A stretch of DNA of 64,000 nucleotides, taken from Fibrobacterota bacterium. Lineage in GTDB: Bacteria > Fibrobacterota > Fibrobacteria > UBA11236. Below, piece by piece: positions 18,437-54,923 of this stretch; position 1 is the stretch's first letter, and every line of letters starts with the position of its first letter. The notes below the pieces were generated by a model that saw nothing but the letters and a program-made list of their open reading frames with translations, ran no database searches and was not told the origin of the DNA. The position numbers and the translations under genes were made by a program. The DNA lies in the NCBI GenBank assembly GCA_028287505.1, contig JAQBPN010000006.1, forward strand, positions 62,001-126,000, in the 5' to 3' direction.

Positions 18437-19369
18437 ATGCCCAAACTCCCGAAGCCAAGCGATTCGCCAGACGCCACCGCCCGGGGAAAAAACCGCAAGC
18501 CAATCCCGGTAGGCGAGGAAGTGGTAGGCCTCGAAGGCATCGAATTGCTCCGCGAGGAGCGCCTGGTTCTCAAGGACATCGACCTGTCCATCCGCCGCGG
18601 CCAGCATTGGGTGTTGCTGGGCCCCAACGGCAGCGGAAAAAGCTCCCTGCTGAGCGTGCTGCAGGGGCTGCTCTGGCCCATCGAAGGCGGAATCCGGGTG
18701 TTGGGCAGGCGATTCGGCGAAAGCGACCTCAGCGGGTTGCGGCGCCTGATAGGTTTCGTAGGGAATGAGATCGAACCGGAATTCCCCGCTTGGCAGACCG
18801 TGGAGGAAATCGCCTGGTCCGGAGGCGTGGGTACGGTAGGCCTGCGTTTCGACAAGCCTTCGGCGGCGGATCGCCTGCGGGCGCGGCGCCTGCTGCGGGC
18901 GGCCGGCATCGCGCATCTGACCAAGCGCCGCTTCGCGTTCCTGAGCCAGGGGCAGCGGCGCATGGCCACCATCGTCAGGGCCTTGATGGTGAAGCCCGGC
19001 ATCCTGATCCTGGACGAACCGGCCGCGGGCCTGGATCCGGTGGCGCGGGAGAACTTCCTGGCCAAGCTGGCGGCCATCATGAAAACGCCCACCGGTCCCG
19101 TCATCCTGTATGTCACCCACCACGTGGAAGAGATCATTCCCTCCTTCACCCACGTGCTCATGCTGAAGCAGGGAAGGGTGGTGAGCTACGGCGGGATCGA
19201 GGAGTGTTTGACGGCGAGGAATCTGGGGAAGGTGTTCGGGAGGGCGGTGGAATTGAAGAGGAGCGAAGGGCGGTATGTGCTGAGGTTGGCCGGCAGAGGA
19301 GCCCTTAATCGAGATCTCGTCGGGCGTCGGGCGTCGGGCGTCGGGCGAAAAGAAAAACCCCGGAATTGA
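18437..19369 (+). CDS. ABC transporter ATP-binding protein (stand-alone)
   Basis: The 310-residue protein has Walker A LGPNGSGKSSLLS, signature FLSQGQRRMATI, Walker B GILILDEPAAGLDP and switch His in VTHHVEE. It resembles ModF/YlmA-like ATPases that act without an adjacent permease; none is found here. The start at 18437 removes an upstream open stretch. The last 16 or so residues (from GRRASGVGR) are encoded by the GTCGGGC heptamer repeat and cannot be original protein sequence. The TGA stop lies in the loop of a hairpin terminator. Confidence 0.85.
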   Translation: MPKLPKPSDSPDATARGKNRKPIPVGEEVVGLEGIELLREERLVLKDIDLSIRRGQHWVLLGPNGSGKSSLLSVLQGLLWPIEGGIRVLGRRFGESDLSGLRRLIGFVGNEIEPEFPAWQTVEEIAWSGGVGTVGLRFDKPSAADRLRARRLLRAAGIAHLTKRRFAFLSQGQRRMATIVRALMVKPGILILDEPAAGLDPVARENFLAKLAAIMKTPTGPVILYVTHHVEEIIPSFTHVLMLKQGRVVSYGGIEECLTARNLGKVFGRAVELKRSEGRYVLRLAGRGALNRDLVGRRASGVGRKEKPRN

Positions 19370-19475
19370 TCCCGAGGTTTTTCCTTTTCTTTTCTCTTTA
19401 CGCCCGACGCCGAGGCGCCAAGCGAATGCCGATTATTTGCTGCGGGGGATACGCGCCGGTCGCCCGACGCCCGAC
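19319..19475 (+). repeat. GTCGGGC-heptamer inverted-repeat element A
   Basis: Four tandem GTCGGGC units (19319-19346) face three GCCCGAC units (19402-19408 and 19462-19475). The left arm lies inside the 3' end of the ABC ATPase reading frame. An inner stem (AAAAACCCCGG against CCGAGGTTTTT) forms a terminator. The right part, with GCCGAGGCGCCAAGC and ACGCGCCGGTCGCCCGAC, is nearly identical to element B. Confidence 0.85.
19353..19382. terminator. Bidirectional hairpin terminator between ABC ATPase and pilQ
   Basis: AAAAACCCCGG pairs with CCGAGGTTTTT with one mismatch, so U-runs follow the stem on both strands. It lies between two convergent genes and inside repeat element A. The ABC ATPase stop codon is in the loop. 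Confidence 0.75.
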
Positions 19476-19571
19476 GAAATCATGCCACGAACGCTGCCGC
19501 CTCAAACAAATCACTTCCCAAATCAACGACTCTTAAAATCATCCCACCGAACGGCCCAAACTCCCTGCGGC

Positions 19572-25771: not shown

Positions 25772-25902
25772 CGAAGGAACGCGATGATTCGCAGGGACTT
25801 ATGGGGACCAGGGAGGATTGGGGTAAGAGATAGGTAAGACAAAAGAGTTGCTTTGAGAATCAGAGGTAGAGTTTGATGCGGCGGTGCCCGGGGAAACTTT
25901 TC

Positions 25903-26078
25903 GTCGGGCGACGGGCGTCGGGCGTCGGGCGAAAAACCAAAAGACTATGGAATTGGATTTTTCGCCCCAATGAACTCGAGAGGTTTTTCTCTCTCTTCTC
26001 TTTACGCCCGACGCCGAGGCGCCAAGCCTAGGTTTTTTAAATGTTGAAGTCCCACGCGCCGGTCGCCCGACGCCCGAC
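25903..26078 (+). repeat. GTCGGGC-heptamer inverted-repeat element B
   Basis: The left arm has four heptamers (one is GACGGGC) at 25903-25930. The right arm has GCCCGAC at 26006-26012 and twice at 26065-26078. An inner stem pairs GAAAAACC (25931-25938) with GGTTTTTC (25982-25989). The right side closely matches element A. It lies between pilM and the end of the PilZ gene. Confidence 0.85.
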
Positions 26079-26142
26079 GAAACGCATCTACTAGGCTTTC
26101 AAGCTTGGGATCTTCTGAAGGCCCTTCAAGCGCCTCTTAAAC

Positions 26143-28396: not shown

Positions 28397-28468
28397 AGGC
28401 GATGGGAAGAGGTTATATGAATTGGATGAGCCAGACACTTGAAACCTGGGAGCCTGTGGCGAAATTTC

Positions 28469-28605
28469 GTCGGGCGTCGGGCGTCGGGCGTCGGGCGAAA
28501 AGCCAAAACCCAAGGGGTTGGCTTTTCATAGAAGCAGGGGCGCCTCCATCGCTGCCCATTGCTGCTCTTTTCCCAACGCCCGACGCCCGACGCCCGACGC
28601 CCGAC
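28469..28605 (+). repeat. GTCGGGC-heptamer inverted-repeat element C
   Basis: This is a symmetric copy: four GTCGGGC units (28469-28496) and four GCCCGAC units (28578-28605), extended by TTTC/GAAA to a 32-bp stem. The inner part contains a terminator-like hairpin. It lies between the HDOD gene and fliN. Confidence 0.9.
28498..28526. terminator. Hairpin terminator inside element C
   Basis: AAAAGCCAA pairs with TTGGCTTTT around an AACCCAAGGGG loop, with a U-run on both strands. It probably terminates the HDOD transcript. Confidence 0.65.
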
Positions 28606-28687
28606 GAAACGTTTCTATTACCGCATCCGTATCTAGTCCCGTCACGCCCTATTCAAAGCCCTCTTCCTCATCCCCAAGAGGCCCACC

Positions 28688-33597: not shown

Positions 33598-34188
33598 GTG
33601 CGTAAAGCGGACATCAAGCGCAAGACCAAGGAAACGGATATCAAGCTCTCGCTTGATCTCGACAATCCCATCGATGGACCCATCGATACGGGCTCGCCGT
33701 TCCTGGACCACATGCTGGATCTGTTCCGCAAGCACGGCGGCATCGGGCTTACCGTGGAATGCAAGGGCGATAAGGATATCGACATGCATCACTCGACCGA
33801 GGACATCGCCATATGCCTGGGCGAAGCGATCCTCAAGGCCGCCGGTGACAAGCAAGGCATCGAGCGATACGGATTCTATTACGTGACCATGGACGAAGCC
33901 CTGGCCCGCTGCTGCCTGGATCTGGCCGGCCGCATCGCGTTCGTCTACAACGCAGCCATCCCCACGGCGCGCATCGGAAACCTGGACACGGAACTGATCC
34001 AGCACTTCTTCCAGAGCGTGGCCGAGAACGCCAAGATGAACCTGCATATCGATCTGCTGCGGGGGGTCAACACCCACCATTGCATCGAAGGCATGTTCAA
34101 GGCCTTCGCCCGGGCCCTGTCCATGGCCATCTCGCCGTCCCGGCGGGTGCAAGGCGTGCCCTCCACCAAAGGCACGCTGAATGCGTGA
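33598..34188 (+). CDS. hisB: Imidazoleglycerol-phosphate dehydratase
   Basis: The 196-residue enzyme (GTG start) makes imidazole-acetol phosphate in histidine synthesis. Manganese ligands are in FLDHMLDLFRKHGG, MHHSTEDIAICLGEA, MDEALARCCLDLAGR and HHCIEGMFKAFARAL. Length is normal. No other his gene is present. The last five codons and stop are repeated in tandem downstream. Confidence 0.93.
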   Translation: MRKADIKRKTKETDIKLSLDLDNPIDGPIDTGSPFLDHMLDLFRKHGGIGLTVECKGDKDIDMHHSTEDIAICLGEAILKAAGDKQGIERYGFYYVTMDEALARCCLDLAGRIAFVYNAAIPTARIGNLDTELIQHFFQSVAENAKMNLHIDLLRGVNTHHCIEGMFKAFARALSMAISPSRRVQGVPSTKGTLNA

Positions 34189-34236
34189 CTCAGGCACGCT
34201 CAATGCGTGACTCGGGGACGCCGAACGCGTAACCGC
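34171..34236 (+). repeat. Three tandem 22-bp hairpin units containing the hisB stop codon
   Basis: Units at 34171-34192, 34193-34214 and 34215-34236 each contain an arm pair such as CACGC-TGAAT-GCGTG and a stop codon at the same place. Unit one holds the hisB end (GTLNA, stop), unit two reads GTLNA-stop with one synonymous change, and unit three GTPNA-stop (TAA). Confidence 0.8.
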
Positions 34237-35226
34237 TTCCGCTCCCCGATGGTGTTCGCGCCTGCGTGCGCGCTGGCCTGTTGTGTTTTCACCGCGTTGG
34301 CTTTGTCCATCACCCCAAGCTCCCGTTCCGCCCCGCCCGCTGCCCAAGCCACGACGACCGCCACCTCTGCGGCTACAGTTGCTTCAGCGGCTACCGCTGC
34401 TTCAGCGGCTACCTCGGGATCCCCCTGGAACGCGCAGGATTCCCTGGCCGCCGTCCGCATCGTGGACGCCCTGGTCCATCGCCCGGAATCCGTCGATTCG
34501 CTGACCGCCGGATCCTTGTCGCGCGATCACGGACTGGGATTCGGACGCCATCTGCGCGAAGTCTGGATCAACCCCGCGGGCACGCTCGGCTTCTCGTTGA
34601 AAATCGTCTACGAAGGGACCCGGCCCGTCAGCTTCGAAGCCCGGCCGGTGATGAATTACGGAGGGTTACGCGCGCGTTACCAGGCCATCCTGGCGCCCGC
34701 CTTCAAGACCTCCGCCAAGGACGCCAAGAACCTCTATGCCGAACCCTATCGCTGGAACATGGCCGCGGTGGCGGCGCCCCTGCCGGAAGACTCCCTGAAC
34801 CTGGGCGGCGATTCCCTGCCGGCTCCCGCCCTGCGGGAGGCCCTGGCCTTCTACATGACGCCTTACTCCGGAACCCTGTACGGAATCCGGGGCGGAGAAG
34901 CCGGCCAGATGCTGGAGAACCGGGACCACTTCCTGGGGCTGGCGGAAATCCTCATGGCGGACAAGCACCTGGCCCGTTACCTGCTCCGCAGCGCCAATCC
35001 GGCCACGCGTCTAACGGCGGCCGAGTTCATCATCCGCCACCGGGAAAACTTCCCCGAATACGATTCCCTGCAGCGGACCGCCTTCCGGGCCGTGTTCGCC
35101 AATCCCTCCAAGGCCGCCACCATGCGGATGGGCCGGGAAACCAGCGAGGATGCGCGCAAGCTTGTCCTGGAGTATTCGCGCCAGGACGCGCGGCGCGACG
35201 GCCGCGGCGTCTTGCGGATGTATTAG
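34207..35226 (+). CDS. Secreted protein of unknown function
   Basis: From the GTG at 34207 the protein has 339 residues with a basic N-terminus and hydrophobic core (ACALACCVFTALALS), followed by an Ala/Thr/Ser linker of tandem SAAT-type repeats. The mature part has no recognised domain, but WINPAGTLGFSLKIVYEG and FYMTPYSGTLYGIRGGEAGQ look structured. The start lies within the repeated hisB end. The ATG at 34249 is an alternative but leaves a signal peptide without positive charge. Confidence 0.5.
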   Translation: MTRGRRTRNRFRSPMVFAPACALACCVFTALALSITPSSRSAPPAAQATTTATSAATVASAATAASAATSGSPWNAQDSLAAVRIVDALVHRPESVDSLTAGSLSRDHGLGFGRHLREVWINPAGTLGFSLKIVYEGTRPVSFEARPVMNYGGLRARYQAILAPAFKTSAKDAKNLYAEPYRWNMAAVAAPLPEDSLNLGGDSLPAPALREALAFYMTPYSGTLYGIRGGEAGQMLENRDHFLGLAEILMADKHLARYLLRSANPATRLTAAEFIIRHRENFPEYDSLQRTAFRAVFANPSKAATMRMGRETSEDARKLVLEYSRQDARRDGRGVLRMY

Positions 35227-35630: not shown

Positions 35631-35977
35631 GGGCCTTCTCCTCGGCTGGTCTGGTTCCATTGTAAGGCAACGGGCCGGTCCAAATCCAGTAGCTAGCTGT
35701 TGGAAGGGTTACAGCGTGCTTTTTTCCCCGCTGATTCGCCGGAAGAGGCTTCCCGGTTCAAAAAACGCGTAATATGGAATGTCCTGACCGGGTACTTGGG
35801 GAGTTTTAGCCGGGAAATTCCGTCACGAATTCCGACATCCTGACAAAAAAATTTCCGCGCCGGTCGATTGCACTGGCGGTCTATCGCCGGTCTCTATGGC
35901 TACCGGTCGAGCGCGGGCTCTGGGCCTAGCGGCCTATGGTGGACCTTGGGCCTAACGGCCCAGGGCGGGCACTCGGC
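35631..35977. other. Intergenic region between response regulator and bshA
   Basis: This 347-base gap carries the 5' region of the response regulator gene (no clear -35/-10 pair seen) and, from 35915, the hairpin units behind bshA. A further imperfect stem (CCGGT/ACCGG, 35888-35906) extends the structured region. No gene is visible. Confidence 0.6.
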
Positions 35978-35992
35978 CTAGCGGCCGAGCGC
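35915..35992 (-). repeat. Three tandem 26-bp hairpin units containing the bshA stop codon
   Basis: Each unit has the core GGCC-(G/T)YTA-GGCC as a short hairpin with TAG in the loop. Unit one (35967-35992) encodes the bshA end ALGR-stop, unit two (35941-35966) reads ALGR-stop with synonymous changes, and unit three (35915-35940) TIGR-stop. Stops are exactly 26 bases apart. Confidence 0.85.
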
Positions 35993-37851: not shown

Positions 37852-37876
37852 GCGACGGCCCTCCGAAATAGATTTC

Positions 37877-38072
37877 GTCGGGCGTCGGGCGTCGGGCGTC
37901 GGGCGTAAAGAATGGGAGTGCTGTGGAACCAGCGTGCGCTTTTTTTTGGGACGGCTGGGAAGCGGCGGCGGAACGCTCTGCCGTTGGCCCGAGCCGCCCA
38001 AAGCAAGCGGCAAGAGACCCATTCTTTACTGTCTTGGTCTTAACGCCCGACGCCCGACGCCCGACGCCCGAC
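37877..38072 (+). repeat. GTCGGGC-heptamer inverted-repeat element D
   Basis: Four GTCGGGC units (37877-37904) face four GCCCGAC units (38045-38072). A second stem pairs GTAAAGAATGGG (37905-37916) with CCCATTCTTTAC (38028-38039). Further inside, GCTTT..GGG..CGGCT pairs with AGCCG.CCCAAAGC. The whole forms a nested, long cruciform between bshC and bshB. Confidence 0.9.
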
Positions 38073-38098
38073 GAAACATTTATTAACCGTGCCATGTC

Positions 38099-41164: not shown

Positions 41165-41225
41165 CTCCACTTTGGGGAGGGTCCCCTCCACTTTAAAGGA
41201 GGGCCCCCTCAGCTTTAAGGGAGGG
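41165..41225 (-). repeat. Three tandem 22-bp hairpin units behind bioA
   Basis: Three units on the minus strand start CCCTCC, contain AAAG and end GAGGGG or similar. Stems are CTCC/GGAG, CCTCC/GGAGG and CCCTC/GAGGG. They begin four bases after the bioA stop and lie outside the coding sequence. Confidence 0.75.
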
Positions 41226-41228
41226 TCG

Positions 41229-49282: not shown

Positions 49283-50143
49283 TCAATGGCCGCCTTGCAG
49301 GAGGCCGAGCACGCCTTGGGGCACCTGATTGGCCTGGGCCAGCATCGAGGTCGCGCTCTGGGAGAGGATCTGCGCGCGGGTGAACTCGGTGGTTTCCTGG
49401 GCGAAGTCCACGTCGCGGATGCGGCTTTCCGCGTCCTGGGTGTTATACAGCTGATTGCCCAGATTGGAAATGGCGAACTCGAGACGGTTCACGTAGGCGC
49501 CCATGTCGGCCCGCATGGTGTTCACCGAGCGGACCGCGGTATCGATCGCCGAAAGGGCGCTCAGGGCGGCGGAGGCCGTGCTGACGGAAGTCGTGACCGC
49601 GTTCATGCCCAAGGACCCCAGGGTGATGGCGGAGACGGTGATGCTGAGGCGGTCCACGGAAGCGCTGGAACCGGCGCCGATGTGCAGAACCGAAGCCGCG
49701 CCGCCGGATACGCCGAAGGAACCCGCCGCTCCGTCGAGCAGGGTCATGCCGTTGTAGGAGGCGGAACCGGATATCCGGGTGATTTCGCTCATCAACGCCG
49801 TGAATTCCTTGTTGGTATAGGCGCGTTCCGTGGTGGTCATGGTATCCGTGGAGCTCTGGATGGCGAGTTCGCGCATCCGTTGCAGGATGTTGTTGACCTC
49901 TCCGGTGGCGCCTTCCGCGATTTGCAGCAGGGCGATGCCATCCTCGGCATTCGACTTGGCGCGATCCATGCCCCGGATCCGGGAGCGCAGGGACTCGGAT
50001 ACCGACAGGCCGGCGGCATCATCGGAGGCGCGGTTGATGCGCAGGCCCGTGGACAGCTTTTCCAGGGATTTGCTCAGGGAGGCCTGCTGCATGTTCAGGG
50101 CGCCTTGTCCGATCATCGAAGATATGTTGTGATTGATACGCAT
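49283..50143 (-). CDS. Flagellin, copy 1
   Basis: The 286-residue flagellin has D0/D1 regions only: MRINHNISSMIGQGALNMQQ, LSTGLRINRASDDAAGLSVS and the C-terminal ESRIRDVDFAQETTEFTRAQ. The middle is a short Ser/Gly segment, so the filament surface should be minimal, as in FlaB-type flagellins. It is the most divergent of five copies, has its own sigma-28 promoter and a 30-base leader, and ends LLQGGH. Confidence 0.93.
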   Translation of the reverse strand: MRINHNISSMIGQGALNMQQASLSKSLEKLSTGLRINRASDDAAGLSVSESLRSRIRGMDRAKSNAEDGIALLQIAEGATGEVNNILQRMRELAIQSSTDTMTTTERAYTNKEFTALMSEITRISGSASYNGMTLLDGAAGSFGVSGGAASVLHIGAGSSASVDRLSITVSAITLGSLGMNAVTTSVSTASAALSALSAIDTAVRSVNTMRADMGAYVNRLEFAISNLGNQLYNTQDAESRIRDVDFAQETTEFTRAQILSQSATSMLAQANQVPQGVLGLLQGGH

Positions 50144-50173
50144 GGGCTTAAGCCTCCGGTTTCTCTATTCCTT

Positions 50174-50201
50174 TCATCGGGGTAATCCGGAAAAGACTTT
50201 A
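50174..50201 (-). promoter_or_regulatory. Sigma-28 promoter of flagellin 1
   Basis: TAAA (50198-50201) and CCCGATGA (50174-50181) are 16 bases apart on the minus strand, near the FliA consensus TAAA/GCCGATAA. Confidence 0.8.
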
Positions 50202-50586
50202 AGAGAGGCTGGAGCTTTGGCTTAAGCTCTTAAGGTATTTTGGGCCGGAAAGGCCGGCGGAGCGTGAGAAAGATCACATTTTCCCCCGAGCCGGGGCCCA
50301 AGGGGCCCAACTCGGGGTAACGACGCTTGGAAAGAAAACCTCCGTGTTGCGCGACTTTCCGGTGCGTCCCTGCTCCGGCCGCCCGCTTGGTCCAGGCTAT
50401 CTTAATTATCGGCAAAGCCGCCGCATTCTTGATGGGTTTACGGAAATTTTTTCTCGGGTACGCGGCAGTAATTTCCCCAGCTGCCGATTCCGGGGAAAAC
50501 GGAGCGACCCACCCGCGCGCGGCCGGGCAACAATTGCAGGGTGGACGACGGACGCGACGCGTACCGCATGGGCGGGGACAAACGGA

Positions 50587-50614
50587 AAAAGCCGGGGGAG
50601 TTCCCCCGGCTTTT
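50587..50614. terminator. Terminator of flagellin 2
   Basis: AAAAGCCGGGGGA (50587-50599) pairs perfectly with TCCCCCGGCTTTT (50602-50614), with U-runs on both strands. An identical stem follows flagellin 3. Confidence 0.85.
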
Positions 50615-50627
50615 CGGTGACGATACC

Positions 50628-50668
50628 GGACCTTAGCGTCCGAGCGTACTCGGGCCTTAGTGTCCGAG
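50628..50668 (-). repeat. Two tandem 24-bp stop-codon hairpins of flagellin 2
   Basis: The TAA of flagellin 2 (50657-50659) lies in a hairpin loop between CTCGGAC and GCCCGAG. A second unit has TAA at 50633-50635, exactly 24 bases further. They correspond to two of the three units behind flagellin 3. Confidence 0.75.
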
Positions 50669-51511
50669 CAGGGACAGCACGCCCTGAGGGACCTGGTTGG
50701 CCTGGGCCAACATCGAGGTCGCGCTCTGCGTGAGGATCTGCGCCCGGGTGAACTCGGTGGTTTCCTTGGCGAAGTCCACGTCGCGGATGCGGCTCTCGGC
50801 GTCCTGGGTGTTGTACACCTGGTTGGACAGGTTCGAGATGGCGAATTCCAGACGGTTCACGTAGGCGCCCATGTCCGAACGCATCGTGTTCACCGACTTG
50901 ATGGCCGTGTCGATGAGGGACAGGGCAGTCAATGCCGTGGCCGCGGTGCTCACCGCCGTGGTCGTCGAATTCAGGCCCAGGGCGCCCAAAGTCATCGAGT
51001 TCACGGTGATGCTCAAGCGATCCGTGGTGGCGCTGGAACCGGCGCCGATGTGCAGCACCGAGGAGGAGCCGCCGGAAACGCCGAAGGAGCTGGAGCCGCC
51101 ATCGAGCAGGGTCATGCCGTTGTAGGAAGCCGAGGAGGAAATACGGGTGATTTCCGACATCAGCTGGCCGAATTCCTTGTTGGTATAAGAACGTTCCGTG
51201 GTGGTCATGGTATCCGTGGAGCTCTGGATGGACAGTTCGCGCATCCGCTGCAGGATATTGTTGATTTCCCCGGTCGCGCCTTCCGCAATCTGAACCAGGG
51301 CGATGCCGTCTTCGGCGTTCGACTTGGCGCGGTCCATACCGCGGATTCTGGAGCGCATGGTTTCGGACACCGACAGACCGGCGGCGTCATCGGACGCGCG
51401 GTTGATGCGGAGGCCCGTGGACAGCTTTTCCAGGGATTTGCCTAATGAGACCTGTTGGGTATTGAGGGCGCTCTGGCCGATCATCGAAGAGACGTTATGA
51501 TTAATACGCAT
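50657..51511 (-). CDS. Flagellin, copy 2
   Basis: The 284-residue protein is nearly identical in the D0/D1 parts to copies 3 and 4 (IRDVDFAKETTEFTRAQILT, LAQANQVPQGVLSLLGH). The start NTQQVSLGKSLEKL differs from its neighbours in a few positions. It has a consensus sigma-28 promoter with an 80-base leader. The leader ends with AACCTCCGTG on the plus strand, a CACGGAGGTT ribosome site shared by copies 2-5. Confidence 0.95.
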   Translation of the reverse strand: MRINHNVSSMIGQSALNTQQVSLGKSLEKLSTGLRINRASDDAAGLSVSETMRSRIRGMDRAKSNAEDGIALVQIAEGATGEINNILQRMRELSIQSSTDTMTTTERSYTNKEFGQLMSEITRISSSASYNGMTLLDGGSSSFGVSGGSSSVLHIGAGSSATTDRLSITVNSMTLGALGLNSTTTAVSTAATALTALSLIDTAIKSVNTMRSDMGAYVNRLEFAISNLSNQVYNTQDAESRIRDVDFAKETTEFTRAQILTQSATSMLAQANQVPQGVLSLLGH

Positions 51512-51591
51512 TATGAAATAAACCTCCGTGTTTTTCCGTGTCGCCCCGCATCCTTGCCTGGGCAGAACCGATCATGCCGATCCGTACTTAT

Positions 51592-51619
51592 TTATCGGCT
51601 GGAATGAGGGCCTACTTTA
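51592..51619 (-). promoter_or_regulatory. Sigma-28 promoter of flagellin 2
   Basis: TAAA (51616-51619), 16 bases, then a perfect GCCGATAA (51592-51599) on the minus strand. Confidence 0.88.
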
Positions 51620-51770
51620 AGGTTCACTGGAACTTTTTTCTCGCTTCTACGGCAGGTTTTGCCCCGATTCGCTTTTCCGCCGGAAAAACGCATTTCCCGC
51701 GCCGGCGGGACGGCAAAGGTTGCCATAAAACCTGAAGCGGAACTTCCCGTGATTTTTTCCGTGACAAAGA

Positions 51771-51798
51771 AAAAGCCGGGGGAGTTCCCCCGGCTTTT
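51771..51798. terminator. Terminator of flagellin 3
   Basis: AAAAGCCGGGGGA and TCCCCCGGCTTTT form a perfect 13-bp stem with loop GT, identical to the stem behind flagellin 2. Confidence 0.85.
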
Positions 51799-51810
51799 CG
51801 GTGACGATGC

Positions 51811-51876
51811 CGGACCTTAGCGTCCGAGCGTACTCGGGCCTTAGTGTCCGAGCGAACTCGGACCTTAGTGTCCGAG
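51811..51876 (-). repeat. Three tandem 24-bp stop-codon hairpins of flagellin 3
   Basis: Three units with stems such as CTCGGAC/GTCCGAG have TAA in the loop, at 51865, 51841 and 51817. They read LGH-stop, LGH-stop and LGR-stop. The period is exactly 24 bases. Confidence 0.85.
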
Positions 51877-52719
51877 CAGGGACAGCACGCCCTGAGGGAC
51901 CTGGTTGGCCTGGGCCAACATCGAGGTCGCGCTCTGCGTGAGGATCTGCGCCCGGGTGAACTCGGTGGTTTCCTTGGCGAAGTCCACATCGCGGATGCGG
52001 CTCTCGGCGTCCTGGGTGTTGTACACCTGGTTGGACAGGTTCGAGATGGCGAATTCCAGACGGTTCACGTAGGCGCCCATGTCCGAACGCATGGTGTTCA
52101 CGGACTTGACGGCCGTATCGATGAGGGACAAAGCAGTCAATGCGGACGTCGAGGTGCTCACCGCCGTGGTGGTGGCGCTCATGCCCAAAGCGCCCAAGGT
52201 CATCGAGTTCACGGTGATGCTCAAGCGATCCGTGGTGGCGCTGGAACCGGCGCCGATGTGCAGCACCGAGGAGGAGCCGCCGGAAACGCCGAAGGAGCTG
52301 GAGCCTCCGTCGAGCAGGGTCATGCCGTTGTAGGAAGCCGAGGAGGAAATACGGGAGATTTCCGACATCAGCTGGCCGAACTCCTTGTTGGTATAAGAAC
52401 GTTCCGTGGTGGTCATGGTATCCGTGGAGCTCTGGATGGCGAGTTCGCGCATCCGCTGCAGGATATTGTTGATTTCCCCGGTCGCGCCTTCAGCGATTTG
52501 CAGCAAGGCGATGCCGTCTTCGGCGTTCGACTTGGCGCGGTCCATACCGCGGATTCTGGAGCGCATGGTTTCGGACACCGACAGGCCGGCGGCGTCATCG
52601 GAGGCGCGGTTGATGCGCAAGCCGGTGGACAGCTTTTCCAGGGATTTGCTGAGGGAGGCCTGCTGGCCGGCAAGGGCCGACTGGCCGATCATCGAAGAGA
52701 CGTTATGATTAATACGCAT
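51865..52719 (-). CDS. Flagellin, copy 3
   Basis: This 284-residue copy is very similar to copy 2, differing mainly near the N-terminus (ALAGQQASLSKSLEKL) and in the variable region (LGALGMSATTTAVSTSTSA). Only D0/D1 domains are present. The gene has a sigma-28 promoter with a 78-base leader and the CACGGAGGTT ribosome site. Its last codons and stop are triplicated downstream. Confidence 0.95.
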   Translation of the reverse strand: MRINHNVSSMIGQSALAGQQASLSKSLEKLSTGLRINRASDDAAGLSVSETMRSRIRGMDRAKSNAEDGIALLQIAEGATGEINNILQRMRELAIQSSTDTMTTTERSYTNKEFGQLMSEISRISSSASYNGMTLLDGGSSSFGVSGGSSSVLHIGAGSSATTDRLSITVNSMTLGALGMSATTTAVSTSTSALTALSLIDTAVKSVNTMRSDMGAYVNRLEFAISNLSNQVYNTQDAESRIRDVDFAKETTEFTRAQILTQSATSMLAQANQVPQGVLSLLGH

Positions 52720-52797
52720 GGTAAAAAACCTCCGTGTTGTATTTGATTCCCCGGGGCTTCCTTGCTCTGGGGTCCCGCTTGCGACGGGTCTTTCAAT

Positions 52798-52825
52798 TCA
52801 TCGGAGGGGCTCGCGAAATACTTTA
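52798..52825 (-). promoter_or_regulatory. Sigma-28 promoter of flagellin 3
   Basis: TAAA (52822-52825), 16 bases, then TCCGATGA (52798-52805) on the minus strand. Confidence 0.8.
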
Positions 52826-52917
52826 ACATTCCCGCAAACTTTAATTTGCACTGGAATCCCGGGATTGGAGGATTTTGGAGCGCCTGGCCGAAATGCGCGG
52901 AAAAGGGCCGCAAAAGA

Positions 52918-52943
52918 ACCGCGCGACCCTAGGGCCGCGCGGT
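52918..52943. terminator. Terminator of flagellin 4
   Basis: ACCGCGCG pairs with CGCGCGGT, and the interior CCCTAGGG is itself palindromic. It lies 30 bases after the flagellin 4 stop. Confidence 0.75.
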
Positions 52944-52972
52944 CGGATTAACTTGAACTTGAGGATTCCCGA

Positions 52973-53827
52973 TTACTTGCTGAGCAGGTTCAGCACGCCC
53001 TGAGGGACCTGGTTGGCCTGCGCCAACATGGCGGTCGCGCTCTGCGTGAGGATCTGCGCCCGGGTGAACTCGGTGGTTTCCTTGGCGAAGTCCACGTCGC
53101 GGATGCGGCTCTCGGCGTCCTGGGTGTTGTACACCTGGTTGGACAGATTCGAGATGGCGAATTCCAGACGGTTCACATAGGCGCCCATGTCCGAACGCAT
53201 GGTGTTCACCGACTTGATGGCCGTGTCGATGAGGGACAAGGCCGACAGCGCCGATGTCGCCGTGCTGACTGCCGTGGTGGTGGAACTCAGACCCAAAGCT
53301 CCCAAAGTCATCGAATTCACGGTGATGCTCAAGCGATCCGTGGTGGCGCTGGAACCGGAACCGATGTGCAGCACCGAGGAGGCGCCGCCGGAAACGCCGA
53401 AGGAACTGGAGCCGCCATCGAGCAGGGTCATGCCGTTGTAGGAGGCGGAATTGGAAATACGGGTGATTTCCGACATCAACTGGCCGAACTCCTTGTAGGT
53501 ATAGGAGCGTTCGGTCGTGGTCATGGTCTCCGAGGAGCTCTGGATGGACAGTTCGCGCATCCGCTGCAGGATATTGTTGATTTCCCCGGTCGCGCCTTCC
53601 GCAATCTGAACCAGGGCGATGCCGTCTTCTGCGTTCGACTTGGCACGGTCCATGCCGCGGATCTTGGAGCGCATGGTTTCGGACACCGACAGGCCGGCGG
53701 CGTCATCGGAGGCGCGGTTGATGCGGAGGCCCGTGGACAGCTTTTCCAGGGATTTGCTGAGGGACGTCTGCTGGGTATTGAGGGCGCCCTGGCCGATCAT
53801 CGAAGAAACGTTATGATTAATACGCAT
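52973..53827 (-). CDS. Flagellin, copy 4
   Basis: The 284-residue protein belongs with copies 2 and 3. It differs by ALNTQQTSLSKS, MRSKIRGMDRAKSNAEDGIA and a terminal NLLSK instead of SLLGH. It has a perfect sigma-28 promoter with an 81-base leader. Its 3' end lacks the stop-codon hairpin units. Confidence 0.95.
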   Translation of the reverse strand: MRINHNVSSMIGQGALNTQQTSLSKSLEKLSTGLRINRASDDAAGLSVSETMRSKIRGMDRAKSNAEDGIALVQIAEGATGEINNILQRMRELSIQSSSETMTTTERSYTYKEFGQLMSEITRISNSASYNGMTLLDGGSSSFGVSGGASSVLHIGSGSSATTDRLSITVNSMTLGALGLSSTTTAVSTATSALSALSLIDTAIKSVNTMRSDMGAYVNRLEFAISNLSNQVYNTQDAESRIRDVDFAKETTEFTRAQILTQSATAMLAQANQVPQGVLNLLSK

Positions 53828-53908
53828 GAGGAATACCTCCGTGTTAAGGACATAACCGCGGCATCCTTACCTCGGCCTTGAATTTGGATAGGGGCGCGCC
53901 CAGTCTAA

Positions 53909-53936
53909 TTATCGGCAGACTTCAGAGGTTACTTTA
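53909..53936 (-). promoter_or_regulatory. Sigma-28 promoter of flagellin 4
   Basis: TAAA (53933-53936), 16 bases, then a perfect GCCGATAA (53909-53916) on the minus strand. Confidence 0.88.
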
Positions 53937-54006
53937 ATTTTTTCTTCAACTTTTTTTATGGTGAGGTATCGGCATGGCCGCGGCTACCCGGCCGCAAAAA
54001 GAAAAA

Positions 54007-54029
54007 CCCCGCGTCCAATGGACGCGGGG
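54007..54029. terminator. Terminator of flagellin 5
   Basis: CCCCGCGTCC-AAT-GGACGCGGGG is a perfect 10-bp stem followed on the minus strand by TTTTTC. Confidence 0.85.
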
Positions 54030-54068
54030 CCTTCACCCGACATGGGGAGGGTTCGGGATTTGGTTCTT

Positions 54069-54923
54069 TTAGTGTCCGAGCAGGGCCAGCACGCCCTGAG
54101 GGACCTGGTTGGCCTGCGCCAACATCGAGGTCGCGCTCTGGGACAGGATTTGCGCGCGGGTGAACTCGGTGGTTTCCTGGGCGAAGTCCACGTCGCGGAT
54201 GCGGCTCTCGGCGTCCTGGGTGTTGTACACCTGGTTGGACAGGTTCGAGATGGCGAATTCCAGACGGTTCACGTAAGCGCCCATGTCCGAACGCATGGTG
54301 TTCACGGACTTGACGGCCGCATCGATGAGGGACAGGGTGGCCAAGGCCGAAGTGGCCGTACTCACCGCGGTGGTGGCGGCGTTCATGCCCAAGGCGCCCA
54401 GGGTCATGGACGTGATGGTGATGCTGATGCGGTCCACGGAGGCGCTGGAACCGGCGCCGATGTGCAGAACCGAAGCCGCGCCGCCGGAAACGCCGAAGGA
54501 GCTGGAGCCGCCATCGAGCAGCGTCATGCCGTTGTAGGAAGCGGAAAGCGAAATCCGGGTGATTTCGTTCATCAGCTGGCCGAACTCCTTGTTCGTATAG
54601 GAGCGTTCCGTGGTGGTCATGGTGTCCGTGGCGCTCTGGATGGACAATTCACGCATGCGCTGCAGGATGTTGTTGATTTCCCCCGTGGCGCCTTCAGCAA
54701 TCTGCATGAGGGCGATACCGTCTTCGGCGTTCGACTTGGCCCGGCCCATGCCGCGGATTTTGCCGCGCAGGGACTCGGACACCGACAGGCCGGCGGCGTC
54801 GTCGGAGGCGCGGTTGATGCGCAATCCGGTCGACAGTTTTTCAAGGGACTTTGAGAGCGAGGCCTGTTGGGTGTTGAGAGCTCCCTGGCCGATCATCGAG
54901 GAAATATTATGGTTGATGCGCAT
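54069..54923 (-). CDS. Flagellin, copy 5
   Basis: The 284-residue protein keeps the D0/D1 signatures (LRGKIRGMGRAKSNAEDGIA, IRDVDFAQETTEFTRAQ) and in several positions groups with copy 1 (SESLRG, FAQETTEF, SSASVDRISI). It is the first gene of the array in transcription order. It has the CACGGAGGTT ribosome site, but no sigma-28 match like the other four is found upstream, so its control may differ. Confidence 0.93.
   Translation of the reverse strand: MRINHNISSMIGQGALNTQQASLSKSLEKLSTGLRINRASDDAAGLSVSESLRGKIRGMGRAKSNAEDGIALMQIAEGATGEINNILQRMRELSIQSATDTMTTTERSYTNKEFGQLMNEITRISLSASYNGMTLLDGGSSSFGVSGGAASVLHIGAGSSASVDRISITITSMTLGALGMNAATTAVSTATSALATLSLIDAAVKSVNTMRSDMGAYVNRLEFAISNLSNQVYNTQDAESRIRDVDFAQETTEFTRAQILSQSATSMLAQANQVPQGVLALLGH

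Follow-up and report, generated by a model that had tools for sequence, protein, structure and literature searches.

Mycobacterial intergenic variable-number tandem repeats (VNTR/MIRU-VNTR; rnc-fpg1, ETR-F) consist of tandem units that vary in number between two genes, and relatives without the array have a gap of a few bases (PMC2734929). The array at the 3' end of hisB described here shares this arrangement and has the properties of a VNTR: its copies lie head to tail, and their number differs among four congeneric species (1, 1, 3 and 4). MIRUs, in contrast, are a dispersed, mobile family of homologous elements of 40-100 bp, whereas the hisB unit is unique, 22 bp long and spans a stop codon; among the arrays found in 1.55 Mb of the genome, it has no dispersed homologous family.

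The E. coli REP/BIME elements provide a second comparison, since they too form small tandem clusters of hairpins at or just past stop codons. In E. coli, hairpins at or no more than 15 nt from stops are reported to down-regulate translation, and REPs near stops stall ribosomes (PMC12306157). REPs, however, are a dispersed homologous family with a shared palindromic consensus, whereas here the sequence is particular to each array; the hisB unit is unique among the arrays examined, and its stem is short and unconserved. The TAACTGA direct repeats of the Beggiatoaceae are also tandem, and some overlap the stop of the upstream gene and supply stops in all frames, but there a single invariant 7-bp sequence recurs across many loci, for the most part facing start codons, and it lacks a hairpin of its own (PMC4679880). 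A further comparison is with stop-spanning duplications that we found in other bacteria (38 bp x3 at locus L042, 31 bp x3 and 45 bp x2 at L045, and 17 bp x2 at L028). As at hisB, their unit includes the stop together with the final codons of the gene itself, is gene-specific and occurs in two or three copies; unlike at hisB, there is little or no hairpin in 3/4 of these arrays. The hisB array is ordinary in kind. A search of an open-access library returned no account of stop-spanning hairpin arrays that are specific to a gene.

We consider it most likely that the hisB array is a harmless copying slip and not a regulatory device. Specifically, we assign a probability of roughly 0.7 to the reading that a tandem duplication of about 22 bp across the stop codon, variable in unit number, arose by local copying errors and persists because selection hardly sees it.

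Layout of the hisB array

The window is the whole stretch of DNA analysed, 64,000 nucleotides long (contig C39:62001-126000), from a Fibrobacteria genome of 6.07 Mb in 130 contigs, here called G000. The features at the hisB end are as follows.

33598..34188, + strand: hisB, imidazoleglycerol-phosphate dehydratase (Pfam IGPD, E=3e-61; NCBIfam HisB models); its coding end is unit 1
34171..34192, + strand: unit 1, GGCACGCTGAATGCGTGACTCA, encoding GTLNA and the stop TGA at 34186-34188
34193..34214, + strand: unit 2, GGCACGCTCAATGCGTGACTCG, GTLNA-TGA, with TGA at 34208-34210 in frame +1 and a 5-bp stem CACGC/GCGTG
34215..34236, + strand: unit 3, GGGACGCCGAACGCGTAACCGC, GTPNA-TAA, with TAA at 34230-34232 in frame +2
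34185..34232, + strand: candidate mini-ORF of 15 codons, from a GTG overlapping the hisB TGA (GTGA) to the TAA of unit 3; translation VTQARSMRDSGTPNA*
34249..35226, + strand: downstream ORF with no Pfam hit, sharing the frame of hisB; alternative start GTG 34207 within unit 2

The sequence-only reading had described three 22-bp units at 34171-34236 that read GTLNA-stop, GTLNA-stop and GTPNA-stop. Tandem repeat detection (TRF: period 22, 2.8 copies) and unit alignments agree with this description, each peptide being read in its unit's own frame and ending in TGA, TGA and TAA, respectively. The further claim that every unit contains a CACGC-GCGTG stem holds for unit 1, where the 5-bp stem pairs 34173-34177 with 34183-34187, and for unit 2, but not for unit 3, whose arms GACGC/GCGTA allow only a 4-bp stem (ACGC/GCGT). 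Units 1 and 2 are identical at 20/22 positions, and unit 3 matches them at 14-15/22.

An origin of the array by chance can be excluded because no equally strong array was found in 1.55 Mb of the Markov-shuffled own genome. Among the non-coding unit copies (34171-34236 and locus L101), differences fall mainly at third codon positions; a hand count gave 4 synonymous and 2 non-synonymous differences and 1 insertion. New copies have perhaps been seeded from the coding one, and this bias counts mildly against pure neutrality.

Unit number and descent among relatives

A comparison of hisB 3' ends in relatives, which had been proposed along with the sequence-only reading, established that unit number varies between species: G000 has three units, G005 has four, G004 and G001 have one each, and G002 has none that is recognisable. 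Thus the term triplication fits G000 with its three units, but the number is not fixed, since relatives carry 1, 1 and 4. The hisB end has been duplicated and passed down, with 1, 3 or 4 units in different species. Unit 2 of G000 matches unit 2 of G005 at 20/22 positions, and unit 3 matches the last (fourth) G005 unit at 19/22. Because orthologous units can be recognised, the array is older than the split between G000 and G005, and inner units have been gained or lost since.

These alignments bear directly on whether the array is an assembly or sequencing error. The sequences of the relatives are metagenome assemblies and the window's own genome is fragmented, which would leave room for such an error. 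G005, however, was assembled separately, and at the corresponding position it carries four homologous units that have diverged; the hisB units also bear different substitutions. Since the G005 array is both independent and diverged, we regard an artefact as excluded for practical purposes.

Alignment and spacing also identify unit 3 as the ancestral hisB end. The next ATG lies 16 nt after the TAA of unit 3 in G000 and likewise 16 nt after the single TAG of G004, and the single-copy end of G004 matches unit 3 at 17/22 positions compared with 14/22 for units 1 and 2. Thus 44 bp of tandem copies were gained upstream of it with both neighbouring proteins intact. Within the comparisons made, the unit is not explained by a coding need of the downstream gene, because in G005 and G004 that gene starts past the array, and unit 3 is still followed by the ancestral spacing.

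The mechanism, slippage, and the reason for persistence, near-neutrality, are both inferred. A short segment across the stop codon would be duplicated by slippage during replication or by unequal exchange of copies. The first copy keeps the HisB C-terminus and a stop, and the last copy keeps the ancestral stop along with the 16 nt that lead up to the next ATG. Such a duplication is probably tolerated because the two copies between them supply what each neighbouring gene requires. In this sense hisB offers a clean case of tandem duplications settling where harm is least, given that a stop-spanning copy spares both flanking proteins and the start region of the next gene.

Stem pairing, reading frames and a candidate mini-ORF

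Across the five pairs of the hisB stem in 9 units from four species, compensatory changes and alternative pair types were both absent. All departures unpair the stem (8/44 cells broken), and it is broken in 3/4 of the G005 units. Compared with shuffled, re-tandemed units, the hisB stem is ordinary (stem p = 0.12; energy p = 0.25). The whole hisB stretch does fold better than dinucleotide shuffles (z = -2.5). A search for an intrinsic terminator (GC-rich hairpin and U tract) at 34171-34236 found no terminator-like site, and an Rfam scan of the window gave no match at gathering score, the only match at the hisB array being a chance one (E=0.29). Because unit differences never compensate and the stem is broken in most G005 units, a conserved hairpin function at hisB is not supported by these comparisons.

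These results weigh on the main rival explanation, a REP/BIME-like effect in which hairpins at the stop would stall ribosomes during termination or obstruct 3'-5' exonucleases, and extra units would have been selected for tuning hisB translation or mRNA half-life. The down-regulation reported in E. coli with hairpins at or near stops and the better-than-shuffled folding of the hisB stretch speak for this explanation. The uncompensated changes, the broken G005 units, the 4-bp stem of unit 3 and the unremarkable comparison with re-tandemed shuffles argue against it, as does the observation that close relatives do with one unit. Overall, we consider a REP-like effect at hisB unlikely.

The sequence-only reading had also held that a period of 22 puts the copies in different frames, so that a frameshifted ribosome would meet a stop. 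The first part is correct: the stops fall at 34186 (frame 0), 34208 (frame +1) and 34230 (frame +2), and a frameshifted ribosome would therefore stop within the array. The proposal that staggered copies serve as a back-up device, catching frameshifted or read-through ribosomes in three frames, does not follow. A ribosome that reads through the hisB TGA in frame 0 would cross the entire array unstopped and run on into the downstream ORF, whose frame is that of hisB. In sister arrays of period 24 or 21, all stops share one frame, and G004 and G001 manage without an array. Since sister periods are 21, 24 and 26, periods follow no rule outside genes and frame-0 read-through goes unstopped, the frame-guard argument is unsupported; a back-up stop device is already largely refuted, and we consider it highly improbable. 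The broader caution is that stop codons within such repeats should not be taken as a designed safety device.

A second rival draws on the mini-ORF that begins at GTG 34185. Translation of this frame might bridge the array to the ancestral stop and keep the downstream gene coupled despite the 44 bp, a mode similar to the translational bridging by which MIRUs are described as acting (PMC12548453). A MIRU has an ORF in the unit that overlaps the neighbouring stop or start codon; the candidate frame here overlaps the hisB stop through GTGA, and it is open in both G000 and G005, where the counterpart has 20 codons, the same GTGA overlap and the translation VTQARSMHDPGSLKCVTQAP*. However, in GC-rich DNA chance alone often leaves frames of 15-20 codons open, this one is common to two species only, and coupling across the 16-nt gap of G004 is itself putative. 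We therefore find this bridge improbable, and prefer a nearly neutral duplication as the account of the array.

Stop-spanning arrays elsewhere in the genome and in other bacteria

Arrays with a layout like that of hisB but an unrelated sequence are present at bshA and at genes for a flagellin and a phosphoglucomutase. The related features within the window are listed below.

35901..35986, - strand: bshA stop array, period 26, about 3 units and a relic; stem CTCGGCC-gcta-GGCCGAG
51811..51877, - strand: flagellin stop array, period 24, 3 units; stem CTCGGAC/GTCCGAG, whose loop contains the stop; a terminator-like hairpin and its T run come next
50629..50676 (approximate), - strand: 2-unit flagellin array of the neighbouring paralogue (protein 95% identical)
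41165..41227, - strand: 22-bp hairpin array beginning just past the bioA stop, the stop itself lying outside (BioA identified)

The proposal that the array was made from the gene's own 3' end, and not by spread of a mobile repeat, is supported because its units share no sequence with other arrays. Direct comparison found no shared sequence between the hisB and bshA arrays, as the sequence-only reading had stated, and the hisB unit matches no other array in the 1.55 Mb sampled from the 6.07-Mb genome, where genes were called by a home-made program.

Birth and decay of arrays are visible in the genus. The two flagellin paralogues of G000 differ by exactly one unit (3 vs 2), so unit gain or loss is at work in this genome, and the bshA array of G004 consists of two degenerate units. 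In the window, five flagellin paralogues lie in a row at 49283-54923 (- strand), with 3, 2 or 0 hairpin units at their 3' ends. The flagellin arrays of G000 and G001 have the same layout and the same TACG linker, and one stem pair differs by a double change from C-G to U-A. This single covarying pair lends the REP-like explanation some support, and it suggests maintenance for the flagellin array only. The G001 counterparts (C134:1-2600) have hairpins with the compensated stem. TTCG/TACG-linked hairpin arrays were also observed at the stops of the phosphoglucomutase gene and one other gene (L094:986-1061, which is G000:C39:146986-147061; L239:13672-13723; L197), and the phosphoglucomutase orthologue of G005 has unrelated hairpins with the same linkers.

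To compare frequencies, one method was applied to our own sample and to 72 loci from other families and phyla, including a few distant Fibrobacterota. Stop-spanning arrays were found at 8/1190 genes in the own sample and 4/715 in other bacteria (Fisher p = 1), and a lineage-specific excess was accordingly rejected. One array in the own sample spans a start codon. Compared with the intergenic array rate, about 4 stop-spanning arrays were expected and 8 observed (p = 0.06). Stop-spanning arrays thus appear to be a general kind, at most mildly enriched. Contig C39 (163 kb) holds 4/8 of those in the sample (p = 0.006), a biased figure given that the window was picked for such arrays.

Array periods differ between arrays inside genes and arrays across stops. 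Inside genes, the period was divisible by three in 52/52 arrays (44/44 in the own genome, 8/8 in G004). Across stops, periods were 22, 26, 24, 21, 58, 41, 11 and 34, with 32 in G004, and followed no rule of three. Most simply, periods are constrained by the protein inside genes and by nothing across stops, as selection on proteins alone predicts. This pattern favours a nearly neutral VNTR at hisB, as do the differing unit numbers among relatives, the uncompensated stem, the equal rate of stop-spanning arrays in other bacteria and the unequal flagellin paralogues. The roughly two-fold number of stop-spanning arrays over the intergenic prediction points the other way.

Also against near-neutrality is the coincidence of arrays with stop-centred hairpins, defined as stems of at least 6 bp with a centre within 5 nt of the stop. 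Of such hairpins in G000 and G004, 5/42 lie in a tandem array, compared with 0-4% at positions off the stop, in a comparison made post hoc; the five are at bshA, flagellin, phosphoglucomutase, a gene on contig C47 and the citrate synthase gene of G004. A general excess of stop-centred hairpins was not seen. A general tandem-hairpin element was rejected, since adjacent hairpin pairs are no commoner than in shuffled sequence, and this lack of enrichment in the sampled genome also speaks against a REP-like effect, which the coincidence itself favours. Short inverted repeats may raise the duplication rate, which could produce the association without any function.

Alternatively, in this genus a stop-centred hairpin formed from a gene's last codons and the bases after its stop might be amplified in tandem into a self-made, gene-specific counterpart of REPs that modulates termination or mRNA decay, with the hisB array young or decaying and the flagellin array maintained. 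We view this scenario as unlikely. If the association were functional, REP-like elements could be built from a gene's own end and not from mobile repeats; a wider survey is warranted solely for the coincidence of arrays and stop hairpins, which is above expectation.

Other repeats were noted in the course of the analysis. In the window, arrays of (CGTCGGG)n are followed about 70-170 bp on by inverted (CCCGACG)n.

19318-19347 and 19461-19476: heptamer array pair
25902-25932 and 26064-26079: heptamer array pair
28468-28497 and 28572-28606: heptamer array pair
37876-37906 and 38043-38073: heptamer array pair

A 16-base heptamer probe gave 283 genome matches and its reversed control gave none; the pairs resemble a dispersed element that ends in heptamer repeats and often lies close to the 3' end of a gene. 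A dispersed REP-like palindrome, GAGTTGCTTCGCAACTC, occurs in tandem units of about 56-74 bp, which lie past stop codons in the mapped cases.

G000:C16:54348-54568: REP-like palindrome GAGTTGCTTCGCAACTC
C106:18238-18366: the same palindrome
C70:35901-36065: the same palindrome
C7:35868-35943: the same palindrome
C90:6089-6172: the same palindrome

Finally, G000:C33:53892-54002 contains two 59-bp units that directly follow a stop; both are extended palindromes, GCATCGGTCC...GGACCGATGC around GAGCGCTTGAAGCGCTC.
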